Source: Chlorobaculum limnaeum (lineage in GTDB: Bacteria > Bacteroidota > Chlorobiia > Chlorobiales > Chlorobiaceae). From it: a stretch of 64,000 nt of DNA. The notes beneath the pieces are model-generated. The model saw nothing but the letters and a program-made list of their open reading frames with translations. It searched no databases and was not told the origin of the DNA. The translations under genes were made by a program, and so were the position numbers. Shown here piece after piece: positions 7,667 through 43,156 of the stretch (positions within the stretch are counted from its first letter, which is position 1; each line of letters opens with the position of its first letter). The stretch lies in assembly GCF_001747405.1 (NCBI RefSeq), contig NZ_CP017305.1, forward strand, positions 142,001-206,000. Reading direction: 5' to 3'.

Positions 7667-8016
7667 GATGCTTTTTGTGCTTTAGGGTTGAGAGAATAGT
7701 ACCCTTTGGGACGTATAGGTCTTATTGGACTTATGGGAAAAGAGTTACGACGAAGCTCACCCGTTCCATTCGTTTTGTCACTAAAAAAAGAATATAGTGT
7801 CTTTTCTGTGAACACCATCGTTGAGGTCAGGATTAGCCAGGTTTCTGGCCAAAAAAGCTCCTCATAAAATCCGTTGGTAACGGGAGTTGAAAAGCGTAAA
7901 TTTCCGCCCAAAAACCGCTGTGGCTGGGGATTTTCCGCCAGTCGCAGTTCAACCCACAAGGGTGTCGCCGGATTGCCGTCACTGATTTTCCCGATGCCCG
8001 CAAGCTACAGATAGTT
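7667..8016. other. Intergenic region without a visible gene, upstream of alaS
   Basis: These 350 bases separate two divergent genes. Open frames here are short and unlike coding sequence. The segment at 7680-7800 is AT-richer and probably carries promoters for both sides, but I cannot assign firm -35/-10 boxes. Confidence 0.4.
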
Positions 8017-10674
8017 ATGAATTCACGAGAGATACGGCAGTCGTTCCTCGATTTTTTTGCCGGCAAGGAGCACCGGATCGTCCGCTCCGCACCGGTCATT
8101 CCCGCCGAAGACCCTACCCTTCTTTTCACCAACGCGGGCATGAACCAGTTCAAGGATGTGTTCCTCGGCAAGGGCGCGAGGGAGTACGTTCGCGCGGCGG
8201 ACACGCAGAAGTGCATTCGTGCTTCGGGCAAGCACAACGACCTCGAAGATGTCGGGCGCGACACCTATCACCACACCTTTTTCGAGATGCTCGGCAACTG
8301 GTCGTTCGGCGACTATTATAAAAAAGAGGCGATCGGCTGGGCGTGGGAGCTGATGACCGAGGTCTGGAAGCTGCCGAAAGAGCGTTTGTACGCAACGGTC
8401 TATCAGGACGACGACGAGAGCCTCGAACTCTGGAAACAGGAGACCGACATCGATCCGTCGCACATCCTGAAGTTCGGCAACAAGGACAACTTCTGGGAGA
8501 TGGGCGAGACCGGCCCGTGCGGCCCCTGCTCGGAGATTCATATTGATCTCACGCCCGATGGTTCGGGTGGCCCGCTCGTCAACGTCGGTGATTATCGGGT
8601 CATCGAACTCTGGAACCTCGTGTTCATCCAGTATGACCGTCAGGCCGACGGCACTCTTCAGCCGCTGCCGCAGAAGCATGTCGATACCGGCATGGGCTTC
8701 GAGCGTGTGGCCGCCGTATTGCAGGGGAAATCCTCGAACTACGATAGTGACGTCTTCGCGCCGCTCTTCGACCGCATCACGGAGCTGACCGGCGTCGTCT
8801 ACACCGCCTCACTCGATAGCCCGTCCGACATCGCCATGCGCGTGATTGCCGACCACTGCCGCACGCTCACCTTCGCGCTCTCCGACGGCGCGATGCCGGG
8901 CAACGAGGGACGCGGTTACGTGCTGCGCCGCATCCTGCGCCGCGCGGTGCGCTATGCGGGCACGCTCGGCTGCCACGAGCCGATCATGTACAAAATGGTC
9001 GAGGTGCTGGCGGGCACGATGGGTGACGTATTCCCGGAGCTGGAAAAGCAGCGGGCGACGGTCGAAAAGATCATCCGCGCCGAAGAGGAGAGCTTCCTCG
9101 TCACCCTCGGACGCGGCACCGAAATCTTCAACGAAGTGGTCGCAGGCATGAAAACCGCCGGAAGCACCACCATCTCCGGCGCGGACGCCTTCAAGCTGTA
9201 CGACACCTTCGGCTTCCCGCTCGACCTGACCCGCCTGATGGCTGCCGAAGTCGGCCTCGGCATCGACGAGGAGGGTTTCGAGCACTGCATGACGGAGCAG
9301 AAAACCCGCGCCCGCATGGATCGCAAGGACAAGATGCAGATGCAGGATGACGGCGGCGAGTGGCAGCGGTTCGCGCCGGAAGCGCCGACCATGTTCGTCG
9401 GCTACGAAACGCTCGAAACGGCGGCATCGCTCGTTGCCGTCCGGGTCAGCGGCGACAAGCTTCTCGCGGTGCTCGACCGGACGCCCTTCTATGCCGAAAG
9501 CGGCGGCCAGGTTGGCGACCACGGCACGCTTGAAACCGCCGGATACCGCCTCGACGTCACCGACACGCGCAAGGATGGCGAGCAGATCGTCCACGTCGTC
9601 ACCTCGGCGCACGACAAGGTGCGCGACTGTGCGACCACGCCAGCCGACGTACGCTTCGATGGCTTGGTTGCCGTCGAAGCCGCAGTTGACCGTGAGCGCC
9701 GCGTCGCCACCGAGCGCAACCACACCGCAACGCACCTGCTCCACGCCGCCCTGCGCAAGGTTCTCGGCGAGCATGTGCAGCAGAAAGGCTCGCTCGTCAC
9801 GCCAGAGCGGCTGCGTTTCGACTTCAGCCACTTCTCGAAGGTGAGCGCCGAGGAGATCGAGCAGGTCGAGCACGAGGTCAACGCGGAGATTCGCAAGGCG
9901 GCGGGCGTCACCAAACACGCCGACGTGCCCTACGAAGAGGCGCTTTCGCTCGGCGCGCTCGCCTTCTTCGGCGATAAATACGCCGACCGCGTTCGCGTCG
10001 TCGAAGTATCGGGCATCTCCATCGAGCTGTGCGGCGGCACTCACGTGGGCAACATCGGCCAGATCGGCCTTGTCAAGATTGTCAGCGAATCGTCGGTCGC
10101 CGCCGGTATCCGGCGCATCGAGGCAGTCACCGGCGCGGCAGCCGAAGCGCTGCTCTGGCAGGAGTATCGCAACCTTCAGGAGATCAAAAATCTGTTGAAG
10201 CTCAAGGCGGACGAAGAGGCCGGGCCGAAAATCCGCGAATTGCTCGACGAGAAAAAATCGCTCGACAAGCAGCTTCAGGAGAGTCGCCTCGCCGGATTGC
10301 TCGACCGCCTGTCGGCGTCGCTCGCCGGAGGCGAGGAGATCGCCGGATGCCGCGTCATGACCGAGCAGCTCGACGGCGTCGGTGGCGACGAGCTTCGCCA
10401 GGCGGCAGTGGCGCTGCGAGAGCGCGTACCCGTCGCGGTCGGACTGCTGTGCAGCGTGGCCGATGGCAAGGTGTCGCTGGTTGCTTTCGCGTCGGACGAG
10501 GCGGCCAAATCGCTGAAGCTCGATGCGGGCAAGCTGGTGCGCGAAGCGGCGGCTTGCGTCAAGGGCGGCGGCGGCGGAAAGCCGGAGCTGGCGACCGCGG
10601 GCGGCAAGGAGCCTGCCGGAATCGACAAGGCCATCGAGACTTTCGTCGCCTCGGTCAAGTCCGCGTTACAGTGA
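8017..10674 (+). CDS. alaS: Alanine--tRNA ligase
   Basis: Charges tRNA-Ala and edits mis-serylated product. The 885 residues show the full domain order: the aminoacylation core starting [14 protein letters not shown] with [35 protein letters not shown] and the [13 protein letters not shown] segment; the editing domain with the zinc-binding HTATHLLH (about residue 568) and [10 protein letters not shown] (about 671); and a C-terminal oligomerisation/DHHA1 domain ending in a [15 protein letters not shown] stretch. Full length, no interruptions. The two ferredoxin-like genes follow on the same strand. Confidence 0.98.
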
Positions 10675-37802: not shown

Positions 37803-39176
37803 TTACAGCTTTGGCACCTGCGGGTGGCCTTCAAGCGAGGAGAGTGAGCGTTGCAGCATCTCTTCGGGCAGTGGGAAGTCGCTGATCCTGCCCGACATGT
37901 AGGCATCGTAGCCCTGCAAATCCATCAGGCCGTGGCCCGACCAGTTCATCAAAATCACCTTCTCCTTGCCCTCCTCTTTGGCCTGCTTCGCTTCGCGGAT
38001 GGTCTGCGCGATGGCGTGCGAGGTCTCCGGCGCGGGGATGAACCCTTCGGTGTGGGCGAAGAGCAGCGCCGCTTCGTAGCACTCGGTCTGCGGCAGCGCG
38101 GTGGCCTCGATCAGCCCGATGCGCTTGACGTGGCTCACCAGCGGAGCCATGCCGTGGTAGCGCAGGCCGCCTGCGTGGATCGCCGGAGGGATGAAGCGGT
38201 GGCCGAGGCTGTGCATCGGCAGGAGCGGCGTCATTTTCGCTACGTCGCCCGAGTCGTAAACGTACGGCCCCCTCGTCAGCGTCGGGCAGGCCTCCGGCTC
38301 TGTGGCGATCACCCGCACATCCTTGCCGTGAATCTTGTCGCAGATGAACGGGAAGCTGATTCCCGCAAAGTTCGAGCCGCCGCCTGCGCACCCGATGACG
38401 ATGTCCGGGTAGCGCCCGATTTTGTCGAACTGCTTTTTGGCTTCCAGACCGATGATGGTCTGGTGCAGCATCACGTGGTTCAGTACGCTGCCGAGGGCGT
38501 AGCGGGTATCGTCGCGCTCGACCGCCTGCTCGAGGGCTTCGCTGATGGCGATGGCCAGGCTGCCCGGCGTGTCGGGATCCTCTTCGAGCATCTTGCGCCC
38601 GATGGCCGTCAGTGGACTCGGGCTGGGGATGCACTCCGCGCCCCAGGTCTTCATCATGATCTTGCGGAACGGCTTCTGGTCAAAGCTGATGCGCACCATG
38701 AACACCTTGCACTCGATGCCGATCAGCTTGCAGCTCATTGCCAGTGCGCTGCCCCACTGCCCCGCGCCGGTTTCGGTGGTGAGGTACTTGATGCCGAACT
38801 CTCGGTTGTACCACGCCTGCGCCACCGCCGTGTTGGGCTTGTGGCTGCCGGCGGGCGAGACTCCTTCGTTCTTGTAGTAGATTTTGGCCGGAGTGCCGAG
38901 CGCCGCTTCGAGCCGCCGGGCGCGGTAGAGCGGCGATGGCCGCCAGAGTTTGAGGATGCCGAGAATCTCCTCCGGAATATCGATCCAGCGTTCTGTGCTG
39001 ACCTCCTGTTCGATCAGGTTCATCGGAAACACCTGCGCCAGCGCGTCCGGCCCGATCGGCGTCCCGTCCAGCCCCACCGGCGGCGGCATGGGAGTGGGCA
39101 GGTCAGCCTGAATATTGTACCACTGACGGGGCATTTCATCCTCGCTGAGGAGGATTTTGGTAGGCTCTGTACTCAT
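37803..39176 (-). CDS. TrpB2-type tryptophan synthase beta-like enzyme
   Basis: A PLP enzyme of the TrpB2 group, which joins indole (or a related acceptor) to serine. The 457 residues start [21 protein letters not shown]. The PLP lysine is in AGSHKPNTA, and the phosphate-binding loop is [11 protein letters not shown]. TrpB2 proteins are longer at the N-terminus than the TrpA-dependent TrpB1, as seen here. No trpA is nearby, in line with a stand-alone enzyme. Its start faces the 39.5-kb accessory locus. Confidence 0.92.
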
Positions 39177-39419: not shown

Positions 39420-39474
39420 ATCAGCCGAAACATTGTAGGTACGAAAAAGACCATCATCATGGAGAAATCACCCA

Positions 39475-41028
39475 ATGAGTTCCAATGATAAAAAACTGAC
39501 AGCCCTTCGCCAGAAGATCACCGAAAGCCTACGCATACAACGCGACAGTTCAGAGGCAGTCCCTTACATTGATGCTGCCAACATTCTTGCTGATGTTTGC
39601 GCTCGACAAAACCACGCGATTTTTGCAAGACGCGGATGTGATAAGACGCTACTTCTACATCACTCAGGTCGGTTGCTTGATAAATCGATCCGAACCGTTT
39701 ACCTAAATTGCGAAGATTTTAAAAGACACTCGTTTCCTAACGTACTCATTGAAATTCTTGATGCTCTTTTCCGTGAACTCGAACGGCATCTTACTGGTTG
39801 GTTTGGAAAAAAGAAGCGGTCACGTGAACTTATAAAACAGATCCGCGCAGAACTTTTAAAGCTCAAAAGTTCTGCTGATTCACTTGAAGAATCTGTTCGA
39901 AATATAACAAGCGCAGAACAAAGCACGTCTGCCGAGGCAGCGCTTGGCGTAACCATCAATGATGTGTCTGCGAAGATCGGAGATTCTATCGGAGCCAAGT
40001 CAAAGACTGAGACCGAGCGTAGCTTTAAGGTTCGTAGCGATAAATTACGAGAGTTGGACATGTGGTTGCCGCGCTTAAAGGAGCAAGTGCGTGAGTTTTT
40101 CGAGGTATCCAATTCTGTTAAAGCTGTATTTCTTCAGATAGACGACTTCTATCACCTAAAGAAGACCGATCAGCCCTTTGTCATTGACTACATCCATCGT
40201 CTCTGCAAAGACGTCCCGCTTTACTTCAAGATTGCAACACTACGACATGCTTCGTCGCTATACATCGACCGTGACGGACAACCCTTTGGTGCCCAGGAAC
40301 GACATGATTATCAGCCTATCAATATTGACTACACATTTGCAGATTTTGTGCGAACACGCGATCAGAATCGGCGAATATTTCACGAGTTCGGAAAGTTGGT
40401 AGGACTGAGATCGGATGATATTGACGGCCTTTTTAAGGGTGAAGGCTTTGACCGGTTAGTCATGGCCGGAGGTGGTGTTCCGCGCGACACACTTTCGTTA
40501 TTCCTTGAGGTTCTCAGCTCAGTTCAATCAAACGGCGGAGACAAAATCGGAAAAGATGACGTGCGAGTAATGAGTCGATCGAATTTTGAGCGCCGTATAG
40601 AAGAGTTGAAACATGACTCAGAAGGCGGAGAACAAGATGTTCTGATGCGCGGAATTCATGTTTTTCGCACCTTTTGCCTATCGAAGAAGTCCAACGCCTT
40701 CGTTATTGCAGAGCAGGCTCTTCAACAGCGTGATGAATTTCGTGATCTAGTAAACCGCCTTCTTGACTATCGAATTATTCACAACGCTGGTGCTGCAATA
40801 ACCCACAAGTCAAAAACGGGAACGTATCAGGCTTTTTCTATTGATATAGGATGCTACGCGAATTTTCGGAAGCTTGATGGTCGTTTCGTTGAGATTGATC
40901 TTTCAGAAAAAGATGCAAAAGAAAGATTGCGTTCAGCGCCAGTGTTCGATTCCTCCGATTTTGAAACGTTGTTTGGGTCTACACCGAAAGACATTGAGTT
41001 GGCGTTGATGAATGAAGTTGTTACCTAA
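39475..41028 (+). CDS. NTPase-like protein of unknown function (degenerate P-loop)
   Basis: A 517-residue cytoplasmic protein that I cannot place in a named family. GGAGA upstream supports the ATG at 39475. A P-loop-like motif, ARRGCDKT (51-58), has Asp where the family has the last Gly before the Lys. A Walker B-like segment is AVFLQIDD (217-224). Between them is a charged, coiled-coil-like stretch (about 110-205). The layout recalls ORC/Cdc6- or STAND-like ATPases. Codon use is AT-richer than the neighbours. It is followed by a toxin-antitoxin pair and shares its upstream region with the TIR gene, which hints at a defence role. Confidence 0.75.
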   Translation: MSSNDKKLTALRQKITESLRIQRDSSEAVPYIDAANILADVCARQNHAIFARRGCDKTLLLHHSGRLLDKSIRTVYLNCEDFKRHSFPNVLIEILDALFRELERHLTGWFGKKKRSRELIKQIRAELLKLKSSADSLEESVRNITSAEQSTSAEAALGVTINDVSAKIGDSIGAKSKTETERSFKVRSDKLRELDMWLPRLKEQVREFFEVSNSVKAVFLQIDDFYHLKKTDQPFVIDYIHRLCKDVPLYFKIATLRHASSLYIDRDGQPFGAQERHDYQPINIDYTFADFVRTRDQNRRIFHEFGKLVGLRSDDIDGLFKGEGFDRLVMAGGGVPRDTLSLFLEVLSSVQSNGGDKIGKDDVRVMSRSNFERRIEELKHDSEGGEQDVLMRGIHVFRTFCLSKKSNAFVIAEQALQQRDEFRDLVNRLLDYRIIHNAGAAITHKSKTGTYQAFSIDIGCYANFRKLDGRFVEIDLSEKDAKERLRSAPVFDSSDFETLFGSTPKDIELALMNEVVT

Positions 41029-41076
41029 CCTCATCATTCACACGAACTGATGCCAAACGTTAAATGTAAATGCTAT

Positions 41077-41292
41077 ATGGAATCTGTAGAGGAACTGGCG
41101 AAAAAAGCTATTGATCTCGATCCTAAGGAGAGAATTCGGCTGGTGGAGGCTATTTTGTACAGCCTCGATAAGCCTGATCCTGAAATTGAGAAAAGCTGGA
41201 TAGCAGAATCTGAGGCTCGTTATGATGCGTTCAAGCGAGGGGAGCTTCAGGCTGAGGATTGGGATAAAATCAGAAAAAGGTACGAACGTTGA
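41077..41292 (+). CDS. Antitoxin-like small protein (addiction module component family)
   Basis: Antitoxin of a two-gene module. From the ATG at 41077 it has 71 residues (MESVEELAKKAIDLDPKERIRL), matching the putative addiction-module component group of short helical proteins. An in-frame ATG at 41050 would add nine residues. The C-terminal part (EAEDWDKIRKRYER-like) is charged and probably binds the toxin. Its TGA overlaps the toxin's start, so translation is coupled. Confidence 0.85.
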   Translation: MESVEELAKKAIDLDPKERIRLVEAILYSLDKPDPEIEKSWIAESEARYDAFKRGELQAEDWDKIRKRYER

Positions 41293-41582
41293 AGGCCCGG
41301 TTCATAGCGCCAGCTTCTCTTGAGTTGGATGAAGCTGTGATGTACTACGAGCATCAGTTGCCGGGTTTGGGGTATCGCTTTTTTAAAGAAACATCGGCTT
41401 CCATAGATCGGATTTTATTTATGCCCGAGGCATGGCCGAAAGTAGGTGAACGAACAAGGCGATGCATGTTGAAAGGTTTTCCATATGCTCTGTTCTACGT
41501 GAAAGAGAATACGGAAATTCTTGTCACTGCGGTGGCTCATCTTCACAGGGATCCTAAGCACTACTGTGATCGGATTGAATAG
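41289..41582 (+). CDS. RelE/ParE-family toxin
   Basis: Toxin partner of the preceding gene: 97 residues with a TTG start at 41289 that overlaps the antitoxin stop. It has the ParE-type opening (KARFIAPASLELDEAVMYYE), then GLGYRFFKETSASIDRI, MPEAWPKV and the C-terminal LKGFPYALFYV and VAHLHRDP strands. ParE-type toxins act on gyrase or, for RelE-type, on translating ribosomes; the target here is not known. Intact in frame. Confidence 0.88.
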   Translation: MKARFIAPASLELDEAVMYYEHQLPGLGYRFFKETSASIDRILFMPEAWPKVGERTRRCMLKGFPYALFYVKENTEILVTAVAHLHRDPKHYCDRIE

Positions 41583-41583
41583 C

Positions 41584-41637
41584 TTACCACTCAATCGTGG
41601 TTGGTGGCTTCAAGGAGATGTCGCAGGCGAGTCGGTT
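41584..41637 (-). pseudogene. Relic of a foreign guaA 3' end
   Basis: Read on the minus strand, these bases encode NRLACDISLKPPTTIEW and a stop, matching the last residues of GMP synthase (the intact gene here ends in [18 protein letters not shown]). At the DNA level it differs from the resident guaA at about a quarter of positions, partly at third codon bases, so it came from another guaA, not from local copying. It lies between the toxin gene and tRNA-Leu. Confidence 0.75.
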
Positions 41638-41660
41638 TCGGGGAAGAACGAGAGAGATTT

Positions 41661-41749
41661 TGGTGCCGAAGGCGGGAATCGAACCCGCACGTCCATTGCT
41701 GAACACGGGATTTTAAGTCCCGGGCGTCTACCAGTTCCGCCACTTCGGC
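41661..41749 (-). tRNA. tRNA-Leu (anticodon UAA)
   Basis: Read on the minus strand: acceptor GCCGAAG with CTTCGGC, an anticodon loop CTTAAAA within a GGGA/TCCC stem (anticodon UAA), a long variable arm as in class II tRNAs, and a T-arm with GGTTCGATTCC. The CCA end is encoded (41661-41663). tRNA-Leu genes are common integration sites; this one is intact. Confidence 0.96.
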
Positions 41750-41924: not shown

Positions 41925-42995
41925 TCACCCCGCGAAGTGGTCGAAGCCCCGCTTCATCTCGGCCATGTCGATGGTCATGCCGAAGATGTCGGTCAGTAAC
42001 ATGCCCTCCTCTTTCTCGGTGATTTCGCCGATGACCGTGATGTCGCGGTGGGCGGCGACGAGGTCGTACTGCGACTTCGGCAGTGTGAAGAGGAGCTGGT
42101 AGTCCTCGCCGCCGGTGAGCGCCCAGTCGAAGGCGTCCTGCTGGAACTCTTCGGCCACGGCTCGCGCTTCGGGCAGCACCGGAATGCGGCTCTCGTCGAT
42201 GTGCGCCCCCACGCCGGAGCGGCGGCAGAGGTGGCCGAGGTCGGCGACGAGGCCGTCGGAAATGTCGATCATCGCGGTTGGCACGATGCCCTCCTCGCTG
42301 AAAAAGTCGATGATGTCGATGCGCGCTTCGGGCAAGAGGTGGCAGCGGATCGCTTCGGCGTACTCCTGCAATTCGGCCATCACCTCCTTGTTGTACGGCT
42401 CGTTGTTGCGCATCTGCTCGATCATGGTGGCCCGTTCGCGTTGCAGCAGGTGCAGCCCGGCGGTCGATCCGCCTAGAGTGCCGGTGACGCAAATCAGGTC
42501 GCCCAGCGCGGCTCCCTTGCGCAAGGCGAGCTGTTCGGGAGTTGTCCGCCCGGTCATCGAGACCGAGATGAAGAGGCCCGATGGTGACGACGAGGTGTCG
42601 CCGCCCGCGATGGCGAGGCCGTACGCCGAAGCGGCGTGTTCGATGCCGCGGTACAGCTCCTCGACCATCTCGACCGGCATCTTCGGCGGCACGGCAATCG
42701 AGATGAGCGCGTAGTCCGGAAAAGCGTTCATGGCGCAGATGTCCGAGACGTTGACGCTGATCGCCTTGCTGCCGAGGTGGTGCATGGGCGTGGTCAACAG
42801 GTCGAAGTGCACGTGCTCGGTCAACAGGTCGGTCGTGACCACCTGCACCTCCGACTCGCCAAGCTGCCAGACGGCGCAGTCGTCGCCGATGCCTTCGAGC
42901 AGCTCCGGGCGCTTCTTCGCGGATGGCGCGGTGATCTTTGAAAGCCGCTCGATGAGGCCGAATTCGCCGATCTCGGAAATAGGTTTATATGACAT
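41925..42995 (-). CDS. thiL: Thiamine-monophosphate kinase
   Basis: Phosphorylates thiamine monophosphate to thiamine diphosphate, the cofactor of KorB. I chose the ATG at 42995 (356 residues, MSYKPISEIGEFGLIERL). Family features are GDDCAVW near 40, the magnesium-binding TTDLLTEHVHFDL, SVNVSDICAMNAFPDYALIS, AGGDTSSSPSG and the late MIDISDGLVADLGHLC. The ATP site is complete. No thiamine-biosynthesis neighbours are seen and there is no obvious TPP riboswitch before it. Confidence 0.95.
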   Translation of the reverse strand: MSYKPISEIGEFGLIERLSKITAPSAKKRPELLEGIGDDCAVWQLGESEVQVVTTDLLTEHVHFDLLTTPMHHLGSKAISVNVSDICAMNAFPDYALISIAVPPKMPVEMVEELYRGIEHAASAYGLAIAGGDTSSSPSGLFISVSMTGRTTPEQLALRKGAALGDLICVTGTLGGSTAGLHLLQRERATMIEQMRNNEPYNKEVMAELQEYAEAIRCHLLPEARIDIIDFFSEEGIVPTAMIDISDGLVADLGHLCRRSGVGAHIDESRIPVLPEARAVAEEFQQDAFDWALTGGEDYQLLFTLPKSQYDLVAAHRDITVIGEITEKEEGMLLTDIFGMTIDMAEMKRGFDHFAG

Positions 42996-43014
42996 ATATT
43001 TGCGTACATTGAAG

Positions 43015-43156
43015 GGCACCTCTAAAAACTTATTCCGCGTTTCGATTGCTTCGTTGGGTGGTGCTCGAAATCCTCACGTACTCCATGTACGCTCCGGTTT
43101 CTGCGCTCCAGCCGCCTTGCACTCGGGCCGCTCATGACACTGTATCAGAGGTGTCC
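43015..43156. repeat. MITE/REP-like intergenic element with inverted ends
   Basis: About 142 bp with near-matching inverted ends (GGCACCTCTA at the left; GGACACCTCTGAT read inward from the right). The middle (TCACGTACTCCATGTACGCT) holds a GTAC-centred palindrome. It is between thiL and ftsY, not coding. Elements of this look are common intergenic repeats in bacteria; its family is not assigned. Confidence 0.6.

Follow-up and report, generated by a model that had tools for sequence, protein, structure and literature searches.

A sporadic, phage-borne family of ORC/Cdc6-STAND-like ATPases with an aspartate-bearing Walker A allele in Chlorobaculum limnaeum

ATPases of the ORC/Cdc6 type are used in defence, and the BREX protein BrxC has winged-helix domains, as set out in part of the account in PMC12839542. 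A second point of comparison is DS-41, which belongs to a set of 42 transcription units that the DefensePredictor work validated in E. coli, with homologues in Halobacteria according to part of the same report (PMC13092281). The gene described here lies in the window, the 64,000-nucleotide stretch of Chlorobaculum limnaeum DNA that was analysed, and its predicted product is of the same ATPase class as the defence proteins BrxC and BrxD; these act in multi-gene systems, whereas for the family of the window protein no partner conserved across distant loci was found. The modelled protein resembles archaeal and eukaryotic Cdc6 and ORC subunits in its AAA+ core (Z 13.3 to 13.5) and in the probably winged-helix-like part behind it, but the window family has a coiled-coil insert, is sporadic in bacteria and is encoded by a single gene. 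Its Asp-Asp Walker B also contrasts with ORC.

The open reading frame at 39475..41028 (+ strand) starts with ATG and is intact over 517 residues. It had been reported as such in a preliminary description of the same DNA, together with the motif ARRGCDKT, a plausible Walker B, a coiled-coil-like insert of about 100 residues, an AT-richer composition than the neighbours and a toxin-antitoxin pair behind the gene, and all of these traits were recovered here. The chance of an open random frame of the same length and base composition is approximately 7e-14, which rules out a chance open frame as the origin, and the gene is real and intact. By eye, TGGAGAA upstream of the frame is a candidate ribosome site, and scans for promoters and terminators gave a site count no higher than in shuffled sequence. 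The GC content of the gene is 0.448 versus 0.633 in both flanking genes, named by eye as a trpB-type gene (37803-39176) and thiL (41925-43019), and its third-position GC is 0.416 versus 0.853-0.874 in the same two. The composition of the gene is foreign.

The Walker A motif occupies residues 51-58 (39625..39648, + strand). It is followed by a coiled-coil-like helical insert at residues 114-211 (39814..40107, + strand), which is poorly conserved in the family and was modelled with AlphaFold2 as two long helices, 114-155 and 168-211, with pLDDT below 50 at 146-184. The Walker B motif FLQIDDFYHL spans residues 219-228 (40129..40158, + strand), where Asp223 and Asp224 are invariant in both the 25-row and the 15-row alignment and give the hydrophobic strand of the motif its acidic pair. 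KIATLRH at residues 252-258 (40228..40248, + strand) is conserved in the family and occupies what we take to be a sensor-1-like position. GGVPRD at residues 333-338 (40471..40488, + strand), with Gly333, Gly334, Val335, Arg337 and Asp338 invariant in the 15-row alignment, is similar to the sensor-2 or GxP motif of ORC/Cdc6 and STAND proteins. The AlphaFold2 model from 25 sequences (mean pLDDT 72.4, pTM 0.67) has an AAA+ core, the insert helices and a C-terminal helix-and-strand part.

The preliminary description had left the fold open between ORC/Cdc6, STAND and other classes. The best structural match of the model was the Drosophila ORC-Cdc6 chain 7jgr_G (Z 13.5, rmsd 3.9, 242 aligned), followed by archaeal Cdc6 1fnn_A (Z 13.3, rmsd 4.5, 240 aligned), and the STAND proteins Dark (Z 13.0) and CED-4 (Z 12.8) came within 1 Z of these. 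TnsC was also among the fold matches, and a viral structure library returned mainly giant-virus and clamp-loader ATPases. When modelled alone, the C-terminal 146 residues gave better values (pLDDT 83.0, pTM 0.79); the structural matches of this domain were weak and included ORC chains (Z 5.1 and 4.8), and Foldseek gave no match to it at E up to 0.001. A probable winged helix is placed at residues ~385-456 (40627..40842, + strand) by the model and the weak matches to ORC winged helices. Searches for solved homologues gave none with the single window protein at E up to 1, and the family profile retrieved no more than three coiled-coil proteins and a secretion ATPase, none of them better than E 0.17. 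Pfam scans of the family gave no nuclease, TIR, repeat or other effector domain. On the model, the family is best described as ORC/Cdc6-STAND-type AAA+ ATPases with a coiled-coil insert.

With a limit of E 0.01, the Pfam model PF24389 (ORC-CDC6-like) matches 24/25 members, the best at 49.4 bits, while AAA_14 matches 21 and AAA_22 12 of the 25. The likeness to PF24389 is concentrated in the P-loop or Walker B part, where the best stretches of the members lie. Of five homologues scanned, four pass its cut-off of 27 bits, namely L002 (29.7), L004 (36.0), L016 (30.0) and the divergent L024 with the best score, whereas L022 (17.5) and the window copy (23.7) miss it. When whole genomes were searched with PF24389, the window copy was not picked up at E up to 0.001, and 1/14 control genomes gave a below-cut-off match; a full-text literature search found no paper for the accession. 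The NCBIfam model NF047389 (P-loop ATPase Sll1717 family) matches 17/25 members at E up to 0.01 over residues ~35-230 (best 9.8e-12), does not reach its cut-off of 75 bits (best 42.1 among the 10 members scanned) and leaves the C-terminal half of the family unmatched. DS8 was matched by 5/25 members at E up to 0.01. In PADLOC the window copy gave a weak DruC match (0.0054), and of the 25 members 17 matched mad8 (best 8.6e-5), three PDC-S01 (5.2e-5) and three PDC-S20 (1.8e-4), the remaining matches being weaker; these weak matches are read as shared ATPase similarity.

The likeness to DS-41 is a weak match in the ATPase region. The NCBIfam model DS41_1 (NF053860 DS41_1_antiphage), which is tied to DS-41 by its name only, matches 21/25 members when E is limited to 0.01, with 3.5e-7 as the best value, and its equivalog cut-off of 370 bits was not reached, with 29.6 as the best score among 10 members scanned. 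The same model matches 25 of 394 genomes of the phylum, one of them above cut-off, and one of 14 control genomes below cut-off, so that the link to the ATPase family is not specific. In hhalign, the family and the only DS41_1 member over the cut-off, L068, were aligned over just 80 columns around the P-loop. Because the score is far under the cut-off, weak matches are common and the profiles overlap in so few columns, the identification of the family with DS-41 was rejected. A separate P-loop ATPase in the congener G015 (L069, 1468-3048) has a weak DS41_1 match of its own (43.7 bits, E 8.1e-12).

A pattern scan of 84,980 genomes, one per species, turned up 33 related loci. Judged from record titles and tree labels, they are spread over Proteobacteria, Acidobacteria, Planctomycetes, Myxococcota and Bacteroidota. 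The gene was absent from 100/100 genomes of relatives, and in the sample of 394 genomes from the phylum the profile matched six, the window's own included, the others being two clear and three weak partial matches. In the tree the window copy groups with L002 from a Burkholderiaceae bin and then with L007 from Comamonadaceae, with support of 98/95 and 96/99, although counts of tree labels do not by themselves prove transfer. From these comparisons the distribution of the family is taken to be sporadic and the gene to be horizontally transferred.

Viral contigs gave four further loci, L036 to L039. The gene in L037 (5962-7536) is flanked by a tail-completion gene (phrog_26) and a head-maturation protease (phrog_328); upstream of it are a terminase (phrog_38), a minor head gene (phrog_220) and, by eye, a portal-type gene. 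The L036 gene (4325-5887) has a terminase (phrog_38) on one side and, by eye, a portal-like gene on the other, and a head protease (phrog_3244) is found downstream. The ATPase gene of both contigs is thus inside the packaging/head cluster and on its strand. The L038 gene adjoins an integrase (phrog_1), and the L039 contig holds scaffold, capsid and small-terminase genes (phrog_73, 70 and 74), a set that we take to be P2-like. Anti-phage hotspots have been described for E. coli in PMC9122126.

The phage copies bear on the possibility that the family helps mobile elements themselves in replication, partition or packaging, as an initiator- or TnsC/MuB-like ATPase, and is not a defence protein. 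Such a role would agree with ORC/Cdc6 and TnsC among the fold matches and with carriage by phages, inside packaging/head modules in two of them, but the place within the phage differs between all four contigs and no transposase or replicase neighbour is conserved. At E up to 0.01 the window protein moreover has a single match among 50,697 phage records and none among 72,556 plasmid records, and many copies, by eye, sit among ordinary chromosomal genes. We regard the helper role as unlikely. The divergent member L024 matches 24 plasmid records (22 from Burkholderia, one each from Paraburkholderia and Acetobacter), at 24% identity among the 20 listed.

The window gene occupies a site of variable content, the segment 39436..41590, defined by G010, G013 and G015, in which homology stops on the left at 39434-39436 and resumes on the right at 41590-41652. 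The segment lies between the trpB-like gene and a tRNA-Leu(taa) gene (41661..41749, - strand) whose 3' end faces the insert, and is filled by the ATPase gene and the toxin-antitoxin pair. The flanking DNA was matched in all 21 genus genomes searched, the window's own included, with an 87-base piece near the tRNA part as the sole match in G007. In 15 of the 20 other genus genomes, where the site was compared (loci L046-L060), the trpB-like gene and the tRNA lie 27 to 9,094 bases apart, and fewer than 400 in six; in the window they are 2,484 bases apart. Among ten cargo proteins picked by eye and without a random-gene control, seven had a Pfam match at E up to 0.01 and three had none. The cargo of the congeners includes TIR_2 with TPR, PIN, a Phd antitoxin, Fic and HEPN, with below-cut-off matches to HATPase_c and NS_2 endonuclease, and the longer sites (G003, G012 and G017) also hold ordinary-looking genes, by eye sensor-kinase- and transporter-like. 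One congener has a second tRNA-Leu inside the site and another a tRNA-Ser. At the left edge of the window segment no attachment repeat of the tRNA end of at least 9 bases was found, and no direct repeats of at least 16 bases were found in the window region. Judged by these comparisons, the tRNA-Leu site behaves as an insertion hotspot with recurring defence and toxin-antitoxin genes.

The pair is of type II. Its addiction-module antitoxin gene (41050..41292, + strand; PF09720, TIGR02574) scores above the PF09720 cut-off, and the gene of the ParE-like toxin (41289..41582, + strand; PF05016) falls just below its own, with 21.2 bits against 23. The DNA of the pair (41077-41583) recurs elsewhere in this genome at 85% identity (G000:C1:2301321-2301827) and, at approximately 85% identity, in the three congeners G001, G010 and G015. 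Since this DNA occurs apart from the ATPase gene, and no neighbour family was common to the window and the homologue loci (~6 kb flanks, E up to 1e-8, a comparison that could miss small diverged toxin-antitoxin proteins), a fixed system of ATPase and toxin-antitoxin pair was rejected. The pair looks like an independent module.

Common neighbours were found mainly within five close loci, four from Pseudomonas and one from Pantoea, and one neighbour family occurs, in positions that differ, at three of these Pseudomonas loci and at L020 from Halomonadaceae. Within the same flanks and threshold, no partner recurs widely across distant loci, so that a protein working by itself or with factors of the host is most likely. 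At L011, L015, L021, L024 and L030 the homologue has restriction- or defence-type genes less than ~4 kb away. Of ten neighbours at other loci, picked by eye like the site cargo and likewise without a random-gene control, seven match PADLOC at E up to 1e-5 (QueC, which may also be housekeeping, a type IIG N-terminus, type I restriction, PDC-M54A, a type II methyltransferase, a Druantia/type II cytosine methylase and Vsr) and three do not. Two observations on single loci are added here. The L020 neighbourhood holds QueC-family and nucleoside deoxyribosyltransferase-like genes (7980-10575), possibly a base-modification cluster. A 796-residue gene lies ~1 kb downstream of the homologue in two Pseudomonas genomes (L015 and L019), and the N-terminus of the L015 product matches PADLOC PDC-M54A (1.2e-26) and, weakly, LmuA.

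The one abnormal residue of the window protein is in Walker A. The family form of the motif is [AG]RRGCGK[TS], which agrees with GxxxxGK[TS] except for a frequent Ala in the first position; as Ala is found there in most members, only the Asp of ARRGCDKT is abnormal, and with it the window copy departs from GxxxxGK[TS] and its close form. Asp56 is encoded by GAT at 39640-39642. The other copies number 38, from 33 species-genome loci, four viral contigs and one annotated phage, and Gly is found at residue 56 in all 37 that show the position, L039 ending before it. Asp is thus seen in the window copy alone. Two distant relatives from the phylum of the window, L062 (33% identity) and L063 (26%), have FGRRGSGKS and so also Gly, and the nearest homologue L002, 85% identical, keeps Gly56 with a GGC codon at this site. 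A degenerate P-loop as a trait of the family is thereby ruled out. The preliminary description had suggested a regulatory or defence NTPase perhaps no longer hydrolysing ATP; the NTPase stands, as ORC/Cdc6-like, foreign, plausibly defensive and in this copy probably unable to use ATP, but there is no support for the degenerate P-loop as the defining mark of the protein, and a regulatory NTPase no longer hydrolysing ATP does not describe a family that keeps Gly56.

Substitution of the residue that precedes the Lys of a P-loop is expected to block the binding of nucleotide. Asp56 should put a negative charge at the phosphate-binding spot, so NTP binding should be lost in the window protein, which is then most likely inactive. 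In the rest of its length the gene appears constrained. Only two departures, G56D and Y395H, are found at columns invariant in the other 22 rows of the alignment, the other rows having 0 to 12 such departures each, and the dN/dS of the window copy versus L002 is 0.081, which indicates purifying selection over most of the recent history of the gene. Against an inactivation, the dN/dS and the branch counts for the window copy (27 residue changes against 20, 19 synonymous against 11) show no relaxation of selection. The window allele most likely arose recently, as a form dead for ATP binding in a gene that is otherwise under constraint.

Two other explanations of Asp56 were weighed. A base-calling or assembly error would leave the gene an ordinary member, and a single codon does account for the change while the other motifs are conserved; the genome is, however, a single contig with 99.98% completeness, and we find an error distinctly improbable. 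Less probable again is an adaptive Asp56 that would make the window protein a nucleotide-free regulator or scaffold. The intact frame and other motifs, the low dN/dS and the paucity of changes at invariant columns are what such a regulator would be expected to have, but the change is in one copy only while an 85% identical homologue keeps Gly, and a low dN/dS averages over a long time and is blind to a recent single change.

Interrupted copies are seen elsewhere in the family. Stops, frameshifts or a deletion interrupt 10 of 31 genome loci (L010, L015, L025, L026, L027, L029, L030, L031, L033 and L034), a count made without a control gene and in which frameshifts of draft assemblies can be errors; L032, which runs off its contig end, and L028, which loses its C-terminus less than ~100 bases from a contig end, were left out. 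Six of the interrupted loci (L010, L015, L026, L030, L031 and L034) are among the 17 of 31 that do not have a MAG title. In a Bradyrhizobium prophage, an IS1380-like transposase gene divides the copy in two. The interruptions fit a gene that is acquired frequently but retained only in some cases. In two of the interrupted homologues, L010 near residue 52 and L030 near 53-57, the lesion falls within or next to the P-loop, where the window copy has its substitution, although with ~13 lesions seen in all interrupted homologues chance may explain these two.

That the gene encodes a housekeeping AAA+ protein, a replication initiator or a relative of Hda or DnaA, is hardly credible. It would agree with weak Hda matches in 4/25 members (best 6.8e-6, E up to 0.01) and weak DnaA and Orc1 matches of one member, all far below cut-offs, but this reading is contradicted by the sporadic distribution, with none of the 100 relatives and only five further genomes of the phylum sample matching, and by the foreign composition of the gene.

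The reading preferred here, to which we give about an even chance, is that of a solitary, mobile, probably anti-phage and DNA-binding NTPase of the ORC/Cdc6-STAND class that has been inactivated in the window genome. A defence role is proposed from the weak kinship to DS41_1, the use of ORC/Cdc6-type ATPases in defence, the carriage by phages and the genomic context; against it stand the lack of specificity of the DS41_1 link, the missing effector domain, the failure to find a partner conserved across distant loci, and the place of the L036 and L037 genes in head clusters, which is unusual for a defence gene expressed in lysogeny. In an active member, binding of ATP at RRGCGKT and IDD would close the AAA+ core into an oligomer, which would hold DNA through the C-terminal winged helix. 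The coiled-coil insert may sense a phage component or contact a partner, upon which the oligomer would block phage replication or halt the infected cell in its growth. As we propose, the gene would be carried as cargo by phages and at chromosomal insertion sites because it excludes competing phages, and in the window genome Asp56, directly before the catalytic Lys, would abolish NTP binding.

More tentatively, and with the odds somewhat against it, the family may be a single-protein immune ATPase on a Cdc6/ORC core, distinct from DS-41 and BREX and carried in phage head-gene clusters, that bacteria gain and then repeatedly inactivate, the window allele being an example in which inactivation has so far gone no further than a single residue of the ATP-binding loop. 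A literature search found no paper on such a family.

The comparison corrects a tempting misreading, in that the degenerate P-loop belongs to a single copy and does not mark out a family of pseudo-ATPases. The family looks like an uncharacterised, phage-borne defence ATPase. If it is defensive, it would add a solitary Cdc6-like ATPase to bacterial immunity, together with a natural loss-of-function allele, and the phage copies would place the family among competing viruses.
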